From a virus: a DNA stretch of 58,196 nt. Below, piece by piece: positions 20,742 through 46,615 of the stretch (positions within the stretch are counted from its first letter, which is position 1; each line of letters begins with the position of its first letter). Position numbers and translations under genes: made by a program. A model generated the notes under the pieces. It worked only from the letters and a program-made list of their open reading frames with translations. It had not been told where the DNA came from and made no database searches. Location: the IMG/VR virus record IMGVR_UViG_3300027973_000066, positions 1 through 58,196 of that record. The stretch is one strand, 5' to 3'.

Positions 20742-23700
20742 CTAGTATGACACGTTGTTGGCGTTGATACTGTTCGCCCCAGCCAACGAAATCGTCCCAT
20801 TTGCCACGTTGCCTACGCAGGCAGTGTAATCTGCGCCAAAGGCTTCCAACACCGAAGGCGAAACCGCCACGCTATCAAAGATATTGCCGTTCACAGAAAC
20901 TTGTAGTGAACTCAGAAGATAAAGATCAACGTTGGTGTTGGCGACAAAATAGCAACCCATAAATGAATGTTTTGAACCAGATACCACTGCTCCAAAATAT
21001 GAGTTGCTAATCTGGCAGGATGAAAATGACACCCCAGAGCAAGAAGCATTAATTTGAACAGCCGGCTGAGCTGGGCTTGCCCCAGCGGTGGCAAACTCTG
21101 ACGCTGAAAATTTCCAGTTTGTCGATGACGCCATGATCAATGCGCCGCCTGGGCATGTGGTGAAGGAACACGCGGCAGCGTCTCCCCAATCCTGCCCATT
21201 GATATTAAGCCCAACATTTTGGCCGTTTGTTGAGCAAGATGATAGGCGCACACCCTCATCAAACGCCCCAGCGCCGCCATTTATATAAAACCCACTGCCG
21301 CTTCCATTTTGAACTTTACAAGAAACAATGTCTGTGTCGGCGCAATTGTCGATAAAAACACCGTTGACGACACTGGAGATGAACATGTTTGATATGTAAG
21401 TGTTGGCGCAATACCGTAAATATACGCCATTGTTAAATGCGCCTTCAATGTTCAAATCATTTATTCTAATCTGAGAACATCTGATTGCGGAGGAGGTGCC
21501 GTCAATAACTATGGCGTTGCAGTTTGTTTTTGAATTTACCAAAAGCTTCATTCCAGCAACGCCAAACCCTGTTTTTATGGAGGTGGCCGCTGCATAATAG
21601 AAGATTGACGTGTTGTTTGCCGCGCACAAAAGCAAGGTAGCTTGAGGCCCCGCACCGTACAAAATCAATCCTGCTTTAAGGGTCAATGAGTTTACTAGGT
21701 AAGACCCTGCTGGAAAGTAAAGCACTCCAGAAGCTGCATTGATGGCGTTTTGGATCGCGGTGGTGTCATTTGTGACGCCGTCACCAACAGCGCCAAAGTC
21801 TTTCACGCTAAAAGTGTCAGCAGCTTTAGATTGCCAAGTGCGGGTGGTCGCGCCAGATCCAGTCTGCAAAAAGCCCTGAAAGGTTGCAGCCACCGCCCCA
21901 TTGCCGGTGTAGGCGTAGCCTGTTGGGCCAGTAGGCAGGCTTGCAGACCCAGGAGCGCCAGTGGGGCCTGTAGGGCCAGTGGGGCCGCCAGCAGGACCAG
22001 TAGGCCCTGTAGGACCTGTTGGACCAGAACCAGTAGGGCCAGTAGGACCAGTAGGACCGCCAGACGGGCCTGTGGGGCCTGTAGGGCCTGTGGGGCCACT
22101 AGAGGTAATGCCCTGAACAAATTTGTTTGTGCCGGTGCCGCCATCGGAAATGTTAGCAATAATGTTGTTGTTAATGACGTTACCAACTATCTGATAATAA
22201 TCAGACGGGCCAGAATTAACAAAAACACCGTAGGCTTGAGTGGTTCCTACGCCAGTAAACGAAGTGTCATTGGTAATGTTGTTTCCTGTAATGGAAAATT
22301 TAGAAATGCCGGAACCAACACCAACTCCCGCGCAACCCGGAGTTACAGTAGAATTAAGGGTAATAATGTTGTTGTTTATGCCAGATCCAAAACCAGCATT
22401 TAACAAAATGCCAAATTGAGCATTTCCCCAAATGCGGGTATTGGTGACCAAAAGCTCGCTACGCCAACTGTTGTTTGTAACAATGCCATTTCCTGTAAAA
22501 CTAGAACCAACCCAGCTTGTGGTAAGGAAGCAGCCTTCACCGCCATAAAGGCGGATTGCGTCATTCCATTGGTGATCGCACTCTAAATCAAAAGCATGCA
22601 ACCATGTTGGGAACGAATAAGACTCAAGAGTGTATGGTGCCCCTACACTGTCTTGCATCAAGACAGCAGTGCCACCCCACAAAAACGCAGAAGCTTCAAC
22701 AATTAAGCTGTGGGCATAAGAATCGTAAATAAGATGTATAAAGCTGGTTGAGCCAATTGTTACTTCAGAATTGTCCATAACAACACGAGAAATGACGCCT
22801 CTAAAACTACCAAGCTCAACAGTTCCATAGTATTTAATGCCGTAGGTTCCGTAAAAGGCGCGTAACTCACAGTCAACTATCTGGTTTCCGGTGCCCCACA
22901 TGGAGATTCCGTTGCCCGTGCCGGTAATCTTGCATGTTCTTACTTCACAAAAGTATGCGTTGTTTTCAAAAACAACTGCGTGTCCGCTTGTTAAATTGCT
23001 TGAACCGGTTTTCCGCCGGATATTGATTGACTCAATGATGCAGTGCTGCAAACCCGAAATGGTAATGACGGCATTACCGCTCGTGCCATCCCACTCAATG
23101 ATCGTCAGCCAGCCAGCGCCGCTTTCGCCGTAGATCCTCTGGCCGTTGGACACCATCGTCAGGCCAGTAACCACCCGGTAGTTACCCGGTGGCAGATAGA
23201 CGTTCTTCCCCGTGTTCAGCGCAGCCTGGATGGCGGCTGAATCATTCGTAGTGCCATCACCAACCGCACCAAAATCCAACACTGAAACAAAATCAGCCGC
23301 CTTATTCTGCCAAGTGCGGGTGACTGCGCTTGTCCCAGGCTGCAAGAAACCCTGAAAGGTAGCGCCGGTGGCCCCATTCCCGGTATAGGCGTAGCCTGTT
23401 GGACCAGTGGGCAAATTAGCAGCGCCAGAAGGCCCTGTGGCACCAGTAGGACCAGTAGGCCCAGTGGGTCCAGTAGGGCCTGTAGGACCAGTGCCAGTAG
23501 GTCCAGTGGGCCCAGTAGGACCAGTAGGCCCAGTGGGTCCAGTAGGGCCTGTAGGACCAGTTCCAGTAGGCCCGGTGGGGCCAGTAGGCCCAGGAGGCCC
23601 TCCAGACGGTCCTGTGGGCCCCGTGGGGCCGGTAGCACCAGCGCCAGTAGGCCCAGTAGGGCCCGTTGGCCCAGTAGGTCCAGTGGCTCCAGTAGCACCA

Positions 23701-24095
23701 AACCCAGTAGGCCCCGTAGACCCAGTGGGGCCCGTTGGCCCAGTAGGTCCAGTGGCACCCGTAGGCCCGGCTGGCCCACCAGAGGGGCCTGTTGCTCCAG
23801 TAGGCCCTGTAGGCCCCGTAGGGCCAGTAGCGCCGGCTCCAGTAGGCCCAGTGGGCCCCGTAGGGCCAGGAGGGCCACCAGACGGCCCAGTGGGCCCCGT
23901 AGGCCCTGTAGCACCACCACCAGCAGCGCTAATCGTCACCCGCCCAGGCGTTGTGGTGCTATCAATCGTGACATTGGTGCCAGCAGTCAGGGTCGAGAGA
24001 GCAAACCCCGCCCCATTGCCAATAGGGATCTGCCCAGCAGCAGGGGTCTTAACAATCTCTAACTTGGGGCCGAAGACGCCAATGTCGTTAGCCAT
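20742..24095 (-). CDS. tailspike with two beta-helix domains on collagen-like stalks
   Basis: A 1117-aa protein. Residues 1-60 are a head-binding type domain, about 62-233 are GPT/GAT collagen triplets, and a beta-helix domain starts near 264 with the pectate-lyase-superfamily opening [21 protein letters not shown] second collagen stretch lies at about 663-727. A second beta-helix domain begins near 755 ([21 protein letters not shown]) and runs to the end. Both helices are preceded by the same [20 protein letters not shown] linker, so one arose by duplication. Each could be a trimeric capsule or LPS depolymerase; active-site residues cannot be assigned by eye. Confidence 0.88.
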
Positions 24096-37883: not shown

Positions 37884-38003
37884 TCAATCCTCATCCTCCT
37901 TCCAATTTGTCTCACGCCACTGTGCCGCCAGACCAACTCCAGCGCAAAGGGCGGCAATCACGACGCCGCCGATCAACGCAATCCAAAAAAAATTGATACT
38001 CAT
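37884..38003 (-). CDS. 39-aa single-TM membrane protein
   Basis: A short gene: ATG at 38003 overlaps the stop of the 227-aa gene as ATGA and is preceded by AAGGA. The protein has an N-terminal hydrophobic segment of about 25 residues (INFFWIALIGGVVIAALCAG) and a charged tail ending KEDED. Function unknown. Confidence 0.75.
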   Translation of the reverse strand: MSINFFWIALIGGVVIAALCAGVGLAAQWRETNWKEDED

Positions 38004-38683
38004 TTGGCTGTTCCTTTTCTGCCACGTTTCGTCGGAGGGGGTGCGGCTGTAGAATGCCCCTGTAGCACCTCCTGTAAGGCCGCCTGATGCCCTCTGGCCT
38101 CAGTCTGGGGGGTAGGGTGCGGAGAAGCCTCTAAAGCCTCTAGCGCCCCCTCCATGAGTGTTTCATCACCATCAAAACTCGGCACGGGGTCGTCACCATC
38201 GAAAACTGGCTTAGGCCTATCTCTTTCGACAGTAGCGCCAGGGAATGCCACCTTGGTCGCGTTGATCACGGCACTGTTCGCCGCCATCACCACCCGCACC
38301 ACCTCCTCGAGGGTCCATGTCGCCACGGTGCGCCCATCGTGCTTTGCGCGGAGGATCTCGACCTGGGCGTGTTCGGTGTCGTGGCAGATGATGACGATGG
38401 TGCCGTCATCCGCCCTCTGCTCCCACAGGCCTGGGGGAAGAGGCTCCGCGCCGGCAGCAGTCGCCGCAGCGTCCATGCCGCGCCAAGCCCGCATCATCAT
38501 CTGGTCCTTGTGGGCCTGGGGTATCCATTCGCCCTGGCAAGCCTCGAGGGTAGCCACCCACCGGGCCTGAGCCTCAGGCGGCACAAGCCGGGTCAGCCGA
38601 TCGATGCCCCACTTGCGTTCCATGAAATTGGCAAGGTCATCAAGCTGGGTCAAAGAGGCTGGAGGAGGGGTAAGATAATCCAT
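38000..38683 (-). CDS. hypothetical protein downstream of the candidate origin
   Basis: A 227-aa protein. The N-terminal half is helical with RKWGIDRLTRLVPPEAQARW near residue 25 and a conserved CHDTEHAQVEILRAKHDG near 110; the C-terminal third is acidic then Ala/Pro/Lys-rich. It is the first gene past the GGAGAAG array on the minus strand. A longer frame to 38749 enters the array and is rejected. No enzymatic motif is recognised. Confidence 0.7.
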   Translation of the reverse strand: MDYLTPPPASLTQLDDLANFMERKWGIDRLTRLVPPEAQARWVATLEACQGEWIPQAHKDQMMMRAWRGMDAAATAAGAEPLPPGLWEQRADDGTIVIICHDTEHAQVEILRAKHDGRTVATWTLEEVVRVVMAANSAVINATKVAFPGATVERDRPKPVFDGDDPVPSFDGDETLMEGALEALEASPHPTPQTEARGHQAALQEVLQGHSTAAPPPTKRGRKGTAK

Positions 38684-38730
38684 GATTAAGAAGCCTTCCA
38701 AGTAGGTTCGCCATCCCTCCGGGGGCGACC

Positions 38731-38970
38731 TTCTCCAGAGGGGAGCCACCCCGGAGGGGGAGAAGCGGAGAAGCAGGCAAACCGGGCTTCTCCGTAATGT
38801 CTCTCAAACCAATTATGGAGAAGCTCCACCGGAGAAGCAAAAATGGCGGATTTCCGGGCTTCTCCGGGCTGGAGAAGCCCCCCAAAATAATTATGGAGAA
38901 GTGGCTTCTCCAGAAGTCGGAGAAGGGTTTTGGAGAAGCTCGGAGAAGCCCCTGGAGAAGGTTGGAGAAG
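38731..38970. repeat. array of 15 GGAGAAG/CTTCTCC heptamers, candidate replication origin
   Basis: Fifteen perfect copies in 240 bp, eleven reading GGAGAAG and four CTTCTCC on the plus strand. Spacing (8 to 30 bases) is not a multiple of three, so a coding repeat is unlikely. Inverted pairs can fold, e.g. GGGCTTCTCC-GGGCT-GGAGAAGCCC at 38857-38881 and TGGAGAAG-TGG-CTTCTCCA at 38894-38912. It lies right after the prim-pol/helicase gene, as iterons usually do. Confidence 0.75.
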
Positions 38971-38971
38971 G

Positions 38972-41068
38972 TCATTCGTCATCGTTCAAATCCTCAATAT
39001 GTATGAAAATTGGTGCCTTTTCGTGGTTGCCATCAATCTCCTTCCAAAGCATTTTTCGGGCATTTGGAAGTACCACTGCCCGCTGGCGGCCAATTGGAAT
39101 GAGCATGTGCAGGTCTTTTGTTTGACGCCCACGGGATAGCCCAAGGCCCTCTGCCACACGGCCTAACGGCAATTTGGTACTATTCCCCATGGCGATCATC
39201 ACGCGGGCCAGCCACTCCTCTGGAGGAGGTGCATCTGGGTCTACAGGCCGCCCTGGCTGGCCCGTTTTGTTGGGCTCATAGATCGGCACGAGGCTTGATC
39301 TACCAAAGCCTGGGTCGATCTGCTCCATCTTGAACATCATTGGAGGCGCCGGCTCACCGTCCTTCTGATCCTCATTGATCAACCTAACATGGTGGGGCCC
39401 GGCGGCCTTGATGGCATACGTGGCATCAACAGCACCGTGGATGGCGCTCGAGCCTCGCATGCCACGCTCGACATCCTTACCCGAGTGATGGATAGGCGCG
39501 ACCGTGCAGCCTAGTTCCTCTTTTATCTCATCGCACTGCGCCATGACAGAACCAACCTCCTGGGCGCTATTCTCATCCACTCCTGGCATAGCGCGAGCAA
39601 GGGTATCAATCACCACCATGGCGATAGCCATGCCTTCAGGCACCGTGGCCCTCACCACCTCGATCACTTCCGCCACTGCCGCAGGGTCGCGGAAATTGAC
39701 GGCGCGAGGGATTACGTAAAAAGGAATGTCGGCATTGATGCCATACTGGTGCCGCATCGCTTTGAGGCGGGTCGGAAAGCCCCCTAAGCCTTCGCCGGCC
39801 AGATACACCACCGCCCCCTGGACAACCGCCCTGTCGGCCCACGGGAGGCCTGCTGCGATGTGCAGGGACAGGGAAAGCCAGACAAAGGTCTTACCCACCT
39901 TAGGCGGCCCCCACGGGATCACCAGGGCGCGAGACGGCACCAGCCCCTCCACCAGCCACACTGCCGGCGGCATGGCCTCGACCTCGGCCAGGGTCATGAT
40001 CTTCAAGGCGCGGGATCGAGCCTGGGGCTGTGGCGTTGGTTTGACTGGCTCGATGATCTCACCAGTCTCTGGGTCATGCTCCAGGGTTGGAGCGCTAGCC
40101 ACTTCACGCCCGCGCCACGTGGGGGCCACGAAGAAGGGGCTGGAGGTTCTGGCGAGGTAGTAAAGAGAGCCAAACCCGATCTTGCGAGGAGGGCTCTTGT
40201 GGAAGCTCTGCCAGACCCTGAGGCACTCGTGATCCTGGTGCTTTTGAGACTTGCACGACCACCGCTGGAATGCCTCCAGGCCCTCGCCGGCACCGCCTGT
40301 GGCGGCGTATGTGGCAAGGCCAACACGTACCCAGTCGTCATACTCGACATCGTGGTTGGTGATGGCAGCTAGTGCCGCCACAACGTCCTGGAGAGGGGCG
40401 TGAGCCTCCTCACGGGTTTTGGCTGGGCCCTCGTGGGTCTTGATGGCAGTCTGCCTTCCTGCCTTCGCCAGGAGGTCCAGAACAGGGCCGCTGATGTCAC
40501 TCATAGCCGTAGCAGCACCGGGCAGGTGAATGCCGGTCACGGTCACATAGCGTGCAGCCCTGAAGAACACCTCGCCCTTGCCGCCACCGGGCAGCTTGTA
40601 GGGAGTGTGGATCGGGGCGTGGAGAAACCCGCCGTGAGTGCCAATGATCCTGATGCCACGGCCTGATGGCGTGATCTCGGTGTAGCTGTTGCAGGCCTCA
40701 ACTAGCTCAGAAGCCCACTCTGTTAGCTCACCAGTCTCAGGGTTACGGCAATCATCAAGGTCCAGATACACGTGCTGAGTATCATCCCGAAGAACATATC
40801 CAATTCCATCCAATTGACCGCCCGCGAGGGCGCGTTCTGCCGCGTCAAGATAGGCCCAGGTGTTGGGCTTCTGAGTGCTGGCGTGAAAATCTGGAAAGTT
40901 GACGCAATAAAGGGGCTTATCCCATCCGCCATTTGGCTTTAGCTGCCATCTCCAACCCACCCAGCGCGCATGATGGCGCAGCACCTGGAGGGCAGACGGC
41001 AGGCTGAATTGTGTGGTTACCCGGCCCTCTGGGCCTCGTGGAGATGGTGGGCTGGAATTATCGGTCAT
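38972..41068 (-). CDS. primase-polymerase / helicase fusion replication protein
   Basis: A 698-aa protein with three parts. Residues 1-200 are a primase-polymerase domain with the catalytic DxD in VYLDLDD (about 101-107) and SGRGIRI near 136. Residues 230-310 match the PriCT-2 helical domain (YDDWVRVGLATYAATGG...QRWSCKS). Residues 360-600 are a RecA-like AAA helicase with Walker A GPPKVGKT at 388-395, Walker B VVID near 486 and HHSGKD near 528. The order and length resemble the phage NrS-1 polymerase, which both primes and elongates DNA. No other DNA polymerase is in the window. ATG at 41068 is chosen over the preceding TTG. Confidence 0.88.
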   Translation of the reverse strand: MTDNSSPPSPRGPEGRVTTQFSLPSALQVLRHHARWVGWRWQLKPNGGWDKPLYCVNFPDFHASTQKPNTWAYLDAAERALAGGQLDGIGYVLRDDTQHVYLDLDDCRNPETGELTEWASELVEACNSYTEITPSGRGIRIIGTHGGFLHAPIHTPYKLPGGGKGEVFFRAARYVTVTGIHLPGAATAMSDISGPVLDLLAKAGRQTAIKTHEGPAKTREEAHAPLQDVVAALAAITNHDVEYDDWVRVGLATYAATGGAGEGLEAFQRWSCKSQKHQDHECLRVWQSFHKSPPRKIGFGSLYYLARTSSPFFVAPTWRGREVASAPTLEHDPETGEIIEPVKPTPQPQARSRALKIMTLAEVEAMPPAVWLVEGLVPSRALVIPWGPPKVGKTFVWLSLSLHIAAGLPWADRAVVQGAVVYLAGEGLGGFPTRLKAMRHQYGINADIPFYVIPRAVNFRDPAAVAEVIEVVRATVPEGMAIAMVVIDTLARAMPGVDENSAQEVGSVMAQCDEIKEELGCTVAPIHHSGKDVERGMRGSSAIHGAVDATYAIKAAGPHHVRLINEDQKDGEPAPPMMFKMEQIDPGFGRSSLVPIYEPNKTGQPGRPVDPDAPPPEEWLARVMIAMGNSTKLPLGRVAEGLGLSRGRQTKDLHMLIPIGRQRAVVLPNARKMLWKEIDGNHEKAPIFIHIEDLNDDE

Positions 41069-41099
41069 CAATTTTTAACGCCCCTGGTATGATCGTGGT

Positions 41100-41135
41100 A
41101 AAAAAACGGGCGCGCCCCGTGAAGGACGCGCCCGT
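41100..41135 (-). terminator. strong terminator between the 245-aa gene and the prim-pol gene
   Basis: ACGGGCGCG and CGCGCCCGT form a nine-pair stem with a 12-base loop, followed on the minus strand by seven Ts. The prim-pol gene below therefore depends on read-through or its own promoter. Confidence 0.92.
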
Positions 41136-41143
41136 GAGTTATA

Positions 41144-41881
41144 CTACCAGGGAGCGGCAGCAGTCGCCGCCACAGGGACCGGGGCAGCAGTCGCCGCCGA
41201 AGCCACAGGGGCCGGGGCGGGGACGTGGTTAGTGGGGGCAGGGGCCGCCACAGCAACGGGGGCAGGGGCTGCCACAGGGCGAGAAGCAGCCGGCACCGGC
41301 ACAACACGCTCGCCCAGGGAGGCGGGGCGCTCAATCCAGTTGGTGAAGGTGAACACCGGCACCTTGAACTTGCTCAGGCCCTGAGGGGTCTTCACTTCCA
41401 CCGTCCTGGTGCTGGTCTGCGCCACGGGGATCATGCCGGTGGCAGCCTCAGGGGACGCGGCGAAGGCATTCCAGGCCTCCTCCATCGCCGGCAGGCCGGT
41501 CTTGCTCGAGAGTAAGAAGTAGCGCGCTGCATCATCGCCAAACGTCTTGGGCGACATGACCTTAATGCGGGCGGCGGGGTTGAAGGCCTTCTTACCCTCG
41601 GGGGTCAGTTCCTGCGGGCACTGCGGAATGGCAGCGCCGTAGGGAACCATGAGGAATGAGGGGGGGCTGCTGATCTTGGCGTAACCAACCTCCAGGCTAC
41701 CGAAATCCATCAAAAATGACGGGTTCATGTAATCTTCTGATTCAGAATTAAAGTACCGGCCACCCTCTTCCATGCGAGTGACGTGCTTCCAAAGGCCCGA
41801 ACGGGCATCAAACTGAAGGCGACCAAGAAACTCGTTGCTGCCGCCGCCGCTGTTGTCGGAGCCTGCGATACCAAAAGCCAT
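41144..41881 (-). CDS. replication-module protein, possible ssDNA-binding protein
   Basis: A 245-aa protein. The N-terminal 180 residues are globular with many aromatics; the last 55 are Pro/Ala/Val repeats ending in a hydrophobic APW tip. A disordered tail with a hydrophobic end is typical of ssDNA-binding proteins, though here it is not acidic. It lies between the exonuclease and prim-pol genes. The assignment is from tail and position only. Confidence 0.5.
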   Translation of the reverse strand: MAFGIAGSDNSGGGSNEFLGRLQFDARSGLWKHVTRMEEGGRYFNSESEDYMNPSFLMDFGSLEVGYAKISSPPSFLMVPYGAAIPQCPQELTPEGKKAFNPAARIKVMSPKTFGDDAARYFLLSSKTGLPAMEEAWNAFAASPEAATGMIPVAQTSTRTVEVKTPQGLSKFKVPVFTFTNWIERPASLGERVVPVPAASRPVAAPAPVAVAAPAPTNHVPAPAPVASAATAAPVPVAATAAAPW

Positions 41882-41952
41882 TGTTTTAGTCCTCTCTTTC
41901 GTTTGCGGGCTGTTGAAAAGGCCGCCTCACTACGCCTACGTCTGGGTTGCCG

Positions 41953-42702
41953 TTAGGCAATCCCAAAGCATTCTTTTGCCAGCGCCCTTGTCTGGGGGTC
42001 ACTGAAATAGAACGAATCCAGGTCTGGCACCACCGTCGAGGCTAAGACCTTCGGGTCGGGTGACAGGCTCAGGAACGCCTCTAAACGCTGCGCGATGTTT
42101 GCGAGGTTGGCAAGATGGTCTTTTGCATTTTCCAACCGATAAACGCCGATTTTTTGCGGAGTGCAGTAAGCGATGCGGCCCTCATCGTTGGTTTCGTGAA
42201 TGTAAAGAGACACTTGGCGGGCGTGGCTGGTGGAGATCTCGGAGGAGAGGCGAAGCTGGCTTTTGATGTCGAGGGTGATGCCATGCTGCCCCCAGCGCAC
42301 GTCGATGAACCCCATGACGGGGATCGGCACGCCCTCGATACGTTTGTCCACTCGCACCTGGATGCCATCAGGCACGCCATATTTCCGAAGCTCAGGGATG
42401 GCCACGGCCACGATGCCAGGGATGGCATCACGCTCCTTCTGGCGCTTGGGGTCACCTGATAGCGCCGCCAGCTTATCAAACTCGGCCAGGGCCAGGGCTT
42501 GGCAAACTGAGATCTCGGCGGTGGGGTTGAGGAGGCCATGGACAATGCCGGCCTCTGCTGCCGTGCCGCGATGGGCGGCGCAGCCTACTGAGCCGCGCTT
42601 TTTGAGCAGCCTCTCCATGACCCAGAGGGCGGGTTGAGCCGCAAACAGGTTGAGGCTGGAGGGCGACAGGTGGGCGATGCCGTAGCGCTCAAAGGCGTTC
42701 AT
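41953..42702 (-). CDS. PD-(D/E)XK exonuclease, Cas4/RecB type
   Basis: A 249-aa nuclease. The active site is in the middle: VMGFIDVRWGQ gives the metal-binding Asp and ITLDIKSQLRLSS the D-x-K; a following HARQVSLYIHETN..AYCTPQKI matches the QxxxY motif of RecB-family nucleases. The N-terminal SPSSLNLFAAQPALW is the usual start of this group. ATG at 42702 overlaps the HTH gene stop as ATGA. It likely resects DNA ends for recombination-linked replication. No separate annealing protein is clear. Confidence 0.82.
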   Translation of the reverse strand: MNAFERYGIAHLSPSSLNLFAAQPALWVMERLLKKRGSVGCAAHRGTAAEAGIVHGLLNPTAEISVCQALALAEFDKLAALSGDPKRQKERDAIPGIVAVAIPELRKYGVPDGIQVRVDKRIEGVPIPVMGFIDVRWGQHGITLDIKSQLRLSSEISTSHARQVSLYIHETNDEGRIAYCTPQKIGVYRLENAKDHLANLANIAQRLEAFLSLSPDPKVLASTVVPDLDSFYFSDPQTRALAKECFGIA

Positions 42703-45044: not shown

Positions 45045-45238
45045 TCACTCAACTCAACCCACCGATCCCCGTCGTCACGCCGCACGGCAAAGGCATGGCG
45101 CAAATGGTGATTGATTATGGGATCGAACATGATCTGATTTGGGTGGTGTTCGATGATGACGGACAATGCTGGGCCTGGGGCAATAAGGACATCCGCGCTC
45201 AGAACAACATCACGATTGGCCGGGACATCAAACCATGA
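45041..45238 (+). CDS. small hypothetical protein
   Basis: A 65-aa protein with HDLIWVVFDDDGQCWAWGNK, beta-rich, and flanked by ATGA overlaps. No family recognised. Confidence 0.72.
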   Translation: MITQLNPPIPVVTPHGKGMAQMVIDYGIEHDLIWVVFDDDGQCWAWGNKDIRAQNNITIGRDIKP

Positions 45239-45906
45239 AACCCAGCCGTCGCGCCCCCATCACGCAGGAGGAGCGTGAGGCTATGCGCCAGCGCAGGCTG
45301 GCGGGTAAATCTCTTGAGGAGATTGCGCTGGAATTTTCTTGTTCGCGCGCATCAGCGCAGAAGACCTGTGCCAACTTGGTCGAAAGGACGTTCCAAATTG
45401 GAAAGCCAATCAGTCAGGAGAAGATTGATCAGATCATAGCTTACCGGAAGGAGGGCCGCACTCAGCCTGACATCGCCAGGATGGTGGGCGTCAGTACGAA
45501 CGTGGTGACAAGGTATACACCGCCTGAATTGAAGATCTGCCGCCCTAGGGGCGGCGAGAAGCGCGAGCGTGTGCGCTGGTCGCCAGAAAGGCCGGTAGGG
45601 GCAATCGGTCAGGCCCGGTGGGATAAGGCCGAAACCAAGAAGCTGTGCGACATGATGAAAAAAGGCAGCGCGTTGCGTGAGATCGCAATCGAGTTAAAGC
45701 GGTCATACACCAGCGTGAAGGACAAGGTAGGCCGAATGGCTAAGACCACAAAGGTTCTGATCCCAGAAGTGCCAGAGGTTGAATTTGAGGAGAAATCAAG
45801 ATTTGCCATGGCAAAATGCCTAAAGTGCTTGAAGCAATTTGAAAGCTATGATCCACGTAAGAACCGTATCTGTGTCAGGTGCAAAAGCAGTGAAGGATGG
45901 TCTTAA
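45235..45906 (+). CDS. multi-HTH regulator with C-terminal zinc ribbon
   Basis: A 223-aa protein. Three HTH-like segments can be read: near residues 9-45 (QEEREAMRQRRLAGKSLEEI), 58-90 (RTQPDIARMVGVSTNVVTRY) and 128-165 (KKGSALREIAIELKRSYTSV). The C-terminus holds CLKCLKQFESYD..CVRC, a zinc ribbon. It is a DNA-binding protein that could switch on later promoters; its site is unknown. ATGA overlap upstream. Confidence 0.75.
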   Translation: MKPSRRAPITQEEREAMRQRRLAGKSLEEIALEFSCSRASAQKTCANLVERTFQIGKPISQEKIDQIIAYRKEGRTQPDIARMVGVSTNVVTRYTPPELKICRPRGGEKRERVRWSPERPVGAIGQARWDKAETKKLCDMMKKGSALREIAIELKRSYTSVKDKVGRMAKTTKVLIPEVPEVEFEEKSRFAMAKCLKCLKQFESYDPRKNRICVRCKSSEGWS

Positions 45907-46160
45907 TGGCTGATAATATTGGATTGAGCGCTGGCCCGGTGATCTCAACAAATGTGGAGGCGCATTCGCTGAATGAACTCAGCTTTTCGTGGAAGATCGT
46001 GGCCGTGTGTCACCGCAGGTACATGATATGGAAGTGGTTCATGGATGGGAATGAGGTGGTGAAGATCCGCCCTGCCGTGGATGATGGCAGCATCATCATG
46101 GTGCAGCGTCGGGATGCTGATGCCACTGTTCTGCTGGCCAAGTGGGCGAAGTTCCAGTGA
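45906..46160 (+). CDS. hypothetical protein
   Basis: An 84-aa protein; ATG at 45906 overlaps the previous stop as TAATG. Beta-rich with W/Y-rich middle (HRRYMIWKWFMDGNEVVKI). It ends where the RuvC gene begins (GTGA overlap). Function unknown. Confidence 0.7.
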   Translation: MADNIGLSAGPVISTNVEAHSLNELSFSWKIVAVCHRRYMIWKWFMDGNEVVKIRPAVDDGSIIMVQRRDADATVLLAKWAKFQ

Positions 46161-46615
46161 TCATCTGCGGCATTGACCCAGGCCTCAGTGGCGCTATCGC
46201 TTGGATCAGCAGCGAGGGGGACGCCCTGATCTGCATCGAGGATATGCCGGTCATCAACGTGAGCGGCAGGAACAAGGTTAATGCCTCTGCCCTGACCAAG
46301 CTCCTGAAGGACCGCTGGGCCGATCTGGTGGTGGTGGAGGAGGTGGGGGCGATGCCCGGCAACGGAGGGGTAAGCATGTTCAACTTTGGATACTCAGCAG
46401 GCATTCTGGAGGGCGTGTGCGCCGCTCTACAGGTGCCCTTGAGGATGGTGCGCCCAGCCGTCTGGAAGCGTCAGGCGGGCGTCCCTGCTGACAAGGGGGC
46501 ATGCCGCATGATGGCCCAGCGCTACTGGCCTGGGGCGAACTATTTTGGCCGGGCGAAGGATGACGGTAGGGCAGACGCAGCCCTCTTAGCGCGCTGGGGG
46601 ATCAATCATGTGTGA
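46157..46615 (+). CDS. RuvC-like Holliday junction resolvase
   Basis: A 152-aa RNase H-fold endonuclease. Catalytic acidic residues are in GIDPGLSGAIAW (first Asp), VVVEEVGAMPGNG (Glu) and KDDGRADAALLARWG (last Asp). It cuts four-way junctions in replicating or recombining DNA before packaging. The start is GTG at 46157, overlapping the upstream stop as GTGA. A decayed copy of its last 13 codons lies just after the stop (46614-46655). Confidence 0.88.
   Translation: MIICGIDPGLSGAIAWISSEGDALICIEDMPVINVSGRNKVNASALTKLLKDRWADLVVVEEVGAMPGNGGVSMFNFGYSAGILEGVCAALQVPLRMVRPAVWKRQAGVPADKGACRMMAQRYWPGANYFGRAKDDGRADAALLARWGINHV

Follow-up and report, generated by a model that had tools for sequence, protein, structure and literature searches.

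The window, by which we mean the whole 58,196-bp stretch of viral DNA that was analysed, one entire IMG/VR virus record, carries a dense array of the heptamer GGAGAAG at the 3' end of a gene for a fused primase-polymerase/helicase (Table 1). This array is very probably the iteron-type replication origin of the window, bound and used by the adjoining helicase protein. The reading that we prefer, and hold with considerable confidence, is that of an initiator helicase that would load itself and bind iterons 3' of its gene through a C-terminal winged helix, as in the SaPI and PICI replicons. The original prediction of an iteron-type origin appears well supported by comparison, namely by the position of such arrays, by words that differ between lineages, by the joint exchange of helicase and array, and by covariation of word and protein.

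Table 1. Features of the window discussed in the text, with coordinates and strand
Feature	Coordinates	Strand	Remark
Iteron array, 15 perfect GGAGAAG/CTTCTCC	38730..38970	-	consensus about yGGAGAAGs
Moderately AT-rich spacer between opposed iterons	38795..38816		weak candidate melting site
Short AT patch AAAATAATTATG beside an iteron	38883..38894		second weak melting candidate
Exchange cassette: helicase, C-terminal domain and array	38651..40107	-	replaced in L001/L002
Fused primase-polymerase/helicase gene P0001, 699 aa	38972..41071	-	proposed initiator
Archaeo-eukaryotic primase-polymerase domain, aa 25-194	40490..40999	-	resembles solved PDB primase chains (6a9w etc.)
PriCT_2 domain, aa 233-307	40151..40375	-	E 7.9e-18
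AAA_25 / RepA-type RecA-fold helicase domain, aa 366-533	39473..39976	-	E 3.2e-39
C-terminal domain, about aa 590-699	38975..39304	-	proposed iteron-binding, inferred from family
Conserved downstream gene, 227 aa	38000..38683	-	73-92% identical in L005/L004; 3' flank of exchange

The array extends over 241 bp, with 11 copies of the heptamer on the plus strand and four on the minus strand. The fifteen perfect copies in both orientations that had been predicted are thus present, with the start at 38730 instead of 38731, and no copy with one mismatch is found inside 38730-38970. The start-to-start distances (29, 8, 20, 30, 14, 28, 12, 24, 10, 14, 13, 10, 12 and 10) are mostly not multiples of three, which, together with the two orientations, agrees with the earlier view that the irregular spacing does not belong to a protein repeat. 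A heptamer count over the whole window, one of the checks proposed with the prediction, gives 29 copies against 6.9 from dinucleotide shuffles (shuffle maximum 16), and relative to the rate outside the array the Poisson probability of at least 15 copies is about 2e-31. The claim that this density is unmatched elsewhere holds for non-coding DNA but not overall, because the word CCAGTAG occurs 12 times in 235 bp at 23443-23677 (14 times over 23443-23710). That repeat is coding: it consists of 13 in-frame copies of CCAGTAGG at 23443-23711 and specifies a collagen-like (Gly-Pro-Thr)n in the ORF at 20742-24095 on the minus strand. Around 9.3-10.7 kb, the window has further tail-fibre repeats of the collagen-like type.

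Inverted copies of the heptamer can pair into hairpins, as had been foreseen, and the array strand folds better than its shuffles (DNA fold z -5.84). A terminator-like site is present within the array, consisting of an inverted-iteron hairpin followed by TAATTATTTT (38894-38912, minus strand). The AT content reaches up to 60% per 30 nt, and no long AT-rich tract is found inside the array. In a comparison with Rfam, the sole match is below threshold and lies outside the array. A GC-skew check, which had also been suggested, finds no inflection at the array and is uninformative on the origin.

The array occupies the gap between two minus-strand genes, the 699-aa gene that ends at 38972 and the 227-aa gene that starts at 38683. 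The helicase gene adjoins the array as had been stated, with its stop codon at 38972-38974; a single base (38971), and not two, separates the stop from the last heptamer. The helicase domain is a RecA-fold domain of the RepA/AAA_25 family, and a model of aa 341-699 has RSF1010 RepA as its best structural match (1g8y/1olo; TMt 0.76 for 1g8y). For the C-terminal domain, a helix-helix-strand-strand order is predicted at low confidence (pLDDT about 42-59). This domain matches no Pfam family and has no near homologue (its best normalised score is 0.11), and a search for relatives of the helicase/C-terminal half gives only a chance match of 12 residues. Since the domain is without a close relative and poorly modelled, its pairing with GGAGAAG rests on the family. 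The window also encodes the virion genes of a phage (terminase, portal, head, tail and endolysin), and the DNA of 38000-42000 has no match to named phages. Between 43.0 and 47.0 kb, a block of plus-strand genes interrupts the otherwise minus-strand genome, with matches to a D5-like transcription regulator (45235-45906) and a RuvC-like resolvase (46142-46615).

Close relatives provide a natural exchange. Two of them (L001 and L002) share about 89-93% DNA identity with the window on either side of an exchanged block, as far as 40108 on the upstream side and again from about 38650 on the downstream side. Within the block they have another helicase domain, another C-terminal domain and another array, whose word is AGTCGGCGCA instead of GGAGAAG. 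In L001 and L005, the copies of AGTCGGCGCA occupy the same place in both orientations, partly with an 11-bp spacing. The original prediction had named, as a result that would speak against it, a lack of the heptamer array in close relatives in which the flanking genes are retained, and, taken literally, this is what we find in L001, L002 and L005. These relatives, however, carry another array together with another helicase and C-terminal domain, so the missing GGAGAAG supports the origin reading. The primase-polymerase half of the protein is nearly identical between the window and L001. This near-identity, combined with the boundaries of the exchanged block, indicates that the array moves together with the helicase/C-terminal part, and, because the array differs where the primase half is nearly unchanged, that the primase does not read it. 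The sequences suggest, therefore, that helicase and word have been exchanged together. In the same relatives (L001:7430-7930 and L005:1138-1638), a 166-aa ORF that is absent from the window begins within the ATGA by which it overlaps the helicase gene, and their array therefore sits in the first codons of this ORF.

The next question is whether such arrays accompany helicases of this type in general. Distant RepA-type helicases were gathered from phages, plasmids, viral contigs and bacterial genomes, giving 68 dereplicated loci; each was searched blindly for its densest 7-mer cluster, and the 300-nt segments 3' of the gene were compared with 832 other tiles of the same loci. For 47 of the 68 loci, against 4.4 expected, the densest cluster is close to the helicase stop, and at least five copies of one word are found in 62% of the 3' segments against 0.6% of the other tiles. 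Measured against dinucleotide shuffles, a significant, lineage-specific array of a 7-8-mer is present at the helicase stop in 48 of 68 loci; a significant 3' array is not found in the remaining 20. The words vary by lineage (CGGGACA, CGGACAA, GTCGGAAGC, TTGCGGAAGT, GCGTGACA, TGTATAAA, TGCCGCACTT and others); among cultured relatives, Rhizobium phage 16-3 (p101) has GCGTGACA and Roseobacter phage CRP-831 has TGTATAAA. Arrays are likewise present behind the helicases of L013 and L014, which lack a fused primase, and in L032, L100 and L156 all copies have one orientation and hence form no iteron hairpins. In the open-licence literature, we have not found a description of phage origins beside RepA-type helicases.

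Several loci depart from this arrangement or deserve separate mention. Arrays of 13 AGTCATC copies are shifted downstream, to +450 to +682 from the stop, in L034, L035, L037 and L045, and seven copies of TCCCCCA lie at +200 to +401 from the helicase stop in L164. In MW202711.1 (L008), seven copies of ACGTTCA are located at 2440-2545, inside the primase-helicase gene and not 3' of it. The 16,971-bp Klebsiella plasmid CP018459.1 (L014) is a small circular record that encodes a capsid protein and a primase-less RepA-type helicase with TGCCGCACTT iterons, and it looks like a capsid-encoding satellite.

Which part of the protein reads the word can be approached by comparing words and domains across the 48 loci with arrays. 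In a Mantel analysis based on ungapped motif comparison, in which one protein (L121, 583 aa) was entered with a wrong core/C-terminal boundary, word similarity correlates with similarity of the C-terminal domain, also after removal of the core effect (r=0.21, p=0.0005), whereas the core of the helicase shows no such correlation (r=0.02, p=0.37). The word thus appears to follow the C-terminal domain and not the core, in a correlation that is significant but small. The same picture emerges from the pair L136 and L176, whose cores are 95.7% identical, whose last parts of the C-terminal domain are 43% identical, and whose words differ.

One C-terminal family with the word GTGnGGnA allows a closer look, as it contains four word classes. 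The residue at alignment column 90 is K, S, N or H where the word is GTGGGGGA, GTGCGGCA, GTGAGGAA or GTGGGGAA, respectively, and this column alone among 122 separates all four classes; the distant L159 fits the H class, its two matching copies being GTGGGGAA and GTGGGGCA. In the predicted structure, a winged-helix fold, column 90 corresponds to residue 88, and the helix that starts right after it (89-98) is expected to be the recognition helix. The model of this C-terminal domain has a mean pLDDT of 68, and its fold matches, weak as they are, agree with such a fold (MarR/Crp-type, winged-helix; best E 0.025). Within the family, the agreement of residue and word is a correlation to which shared ancestry contributes. 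Taken together, the comparisons suggest that the helicase tail itself reads the word. As a separate observation on the GTGnGGnA iterons (L129/L136/L161 families), positions 4 and 7 hold the same base in three of the four classes (G..G, C..C and A..A), and the fourth has G..A.

Known replicons offer several parallels. In RSF1010, RepA is a separate protein and the origin iterons are bound by RepC; this RepA is the closest structure to the window helicase domain, whereas the origin-binding part in the window would be the C-terminal extension of the helicase itself. The alpha protein of P4 is a primase-helicase that also binds the origin repeats (ori-crr), so that its likeness to the window lies in the way of working, while its helicase family is different. 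The SaPI and other Gram-positive PICI Rep proteins, like the window protein in its proposed role, are initiator helicases with multiple short repeats directly 3' of the gene. SaPI Rep uses its C-terminal domain to recognise the iterons that follow immediately after its own gene (Ubeda et al. 2007, cited in PMC7581432), and the isolated C-terminal domain of Cch2 binds repeats 3' of its gene (PMC7581432). The helicases of the SaPI Reps, however, are DUF927-related or of the D5/Primase_Cterm type, whereas that of the window is a RecA-fold RepA-type helicase (AAA_25) fused to an AEP primase and encoded by a 58-kb phage. The pri-rep-ori module of the Gram-negative PICIs likewise has iterons and an origin immediately 3' of the replication gene, and in the E. 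coli PICI the rep-ori segment sustains a plasmid, its origin activity having been tested (PMC6092414). These PICIs are satellites with two iteron sets around an AT-rich region, a layout that is absent from the window, whose array has no distinct AT-rich centre. Though it may work like the SaPI/PICI replicons, we do not class the window element as a PICI, because it has virion genes of its own, a RecA-type helicase and an array without this layout.

A likeness by domain order is found with the PrimQH-type primases of mobile genetic elements with RepA helicases, which have the order AEP, PriCT, RecA-type helicase and winged helix (Kazlauskas 2018, PMC5862659). The same paper suggests origin recognition by the C-terminal winged helix for PolpTN2, which is related to the PrimQH type, and iterons are not mentioned in it (0 occurrences). 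In the PLE satellites of Vibrio cholerae, the origin varies in step with the DNA-binding domain of RepA, and the two are swapped as one module, with cognate specificity shown (PMC8263062). The PLE initiator is of the RepA_N type, not a helicase, and uses semi-palindromic iterons of about 30 bp, in contrast to the helicase and heptamers of the window.

Combining this information, a working model of the origin can be proposed. The C-terminal domains of several protein copies, each a winged helix in the family, would bind the heptamers as double-stranded DNA, and this binding would bring the RepA-type helicase rings together at the origin with no need of a dedicated loader. The DNA close to the bound iterons would then melt, the helicase would load on the single strands, and the fused primase-polymerase would prime synthesis. 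For the window we infer all of these events, from DNA binding and melting to helicase loading and the start of replication.

The heptamers could instead be template start sites for the primase-polymerase domain, a role in keeping with the resemblance of that domain to solved primase chains. The sequence-specific NrS-1 polymerase recognises an 8-nt sequence that is found twice in its genome and has been proposed to be an origin (PMC7102993), and CCPol-MP primes within the Cch2 iterons, so the two roles can coexist (PMC7581432). We regard this as very unlikely, because the primase halves of the window and L001 are nearly identical, yet their array words are wholly different, and because the primase-less helicases of L013 and L014 still have arrays. 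It is improbable, too, that the array is a parS-like partition site or the operator of another phage protein, its place beside the helicase then reflecting autoregulation or chance. The parS sites of mycobacteriophages are arrays of 8-bp repeats, and in Miko and Rachaly one such site closely follows repA (PMC7157519); the terminator-like hairpins inside the array could fit a regulatory site. However, the arrays of many lineages share the position at the helicase stop, and the words track the helicase's own C-terminal domain; moreover, 38000-39400 contains no promoter-like site, and no partition protein is seen among the ORFs scanned near the array, a subset of those in the window.

The fold of the array strand raises another explanation, in which the inverted copies act as a DNA stem-loop and the heptamer sequence is secondary, as at the origin of pRN1, which requires a stem-loop 3' of the replication gene (PMC4234260). 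The one-orientation arrays of L032, L100 and L156, together with the perfect conservation of the word while its spacing varies, make this highly improbable. That the array is simply coding sequence of the next gene is extremely unlikely. Open frames of 111 and 98 aa do run across it, and the 166-aa ORF of L001/L005 passes through their array, but neither window frame has a family match, the spacing is out of frame and the copies are on both strands. In other viral contigs, by comparison, the GGAGAAG arrays among the matches listed are one-strand and almost all in-frame coding repeats, and none of those matches comes with an AAA_25 helicase or a similar C-terminal domain.

Returning to the self-loading initiator helicase, what appears to be new here, on the best reading of the sequences, is the SaPI/PICI-like scheme of 3' iterons on a RecA-type RepA helicase, in full phages. 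We lean towards a wider proposal, in which RepA/RecA-type helicases, whether from phages, satellites or plasmids, make up one large class that recognises the origin and loads itself there. The C-terminal winged helix of such a protein would read iterons of 7-8 bp at the 3' end of the gene that encodes it, by a partly legible residue-to-base code. Helicase tail and origin would be exchanged frequently, and competition through origin targeting, as in PLE/Odn, may be what drives this exchange. The repeat of one metagenomic virus would thereby lead to a simple rule for elements with RepA-type helicases, by which the origin, the word in it and the domain that reads this word could be predicted, and this rule would cover many phages, satellites and plasmids, most of them without a known origin. 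The natural exchanges and the tracking of the word by one residue offer ready test pairs for the evolution of origin specificity. If the proposal is true, an arrangement described for PICIs as unique among known replicons would be common in ordinary phages.
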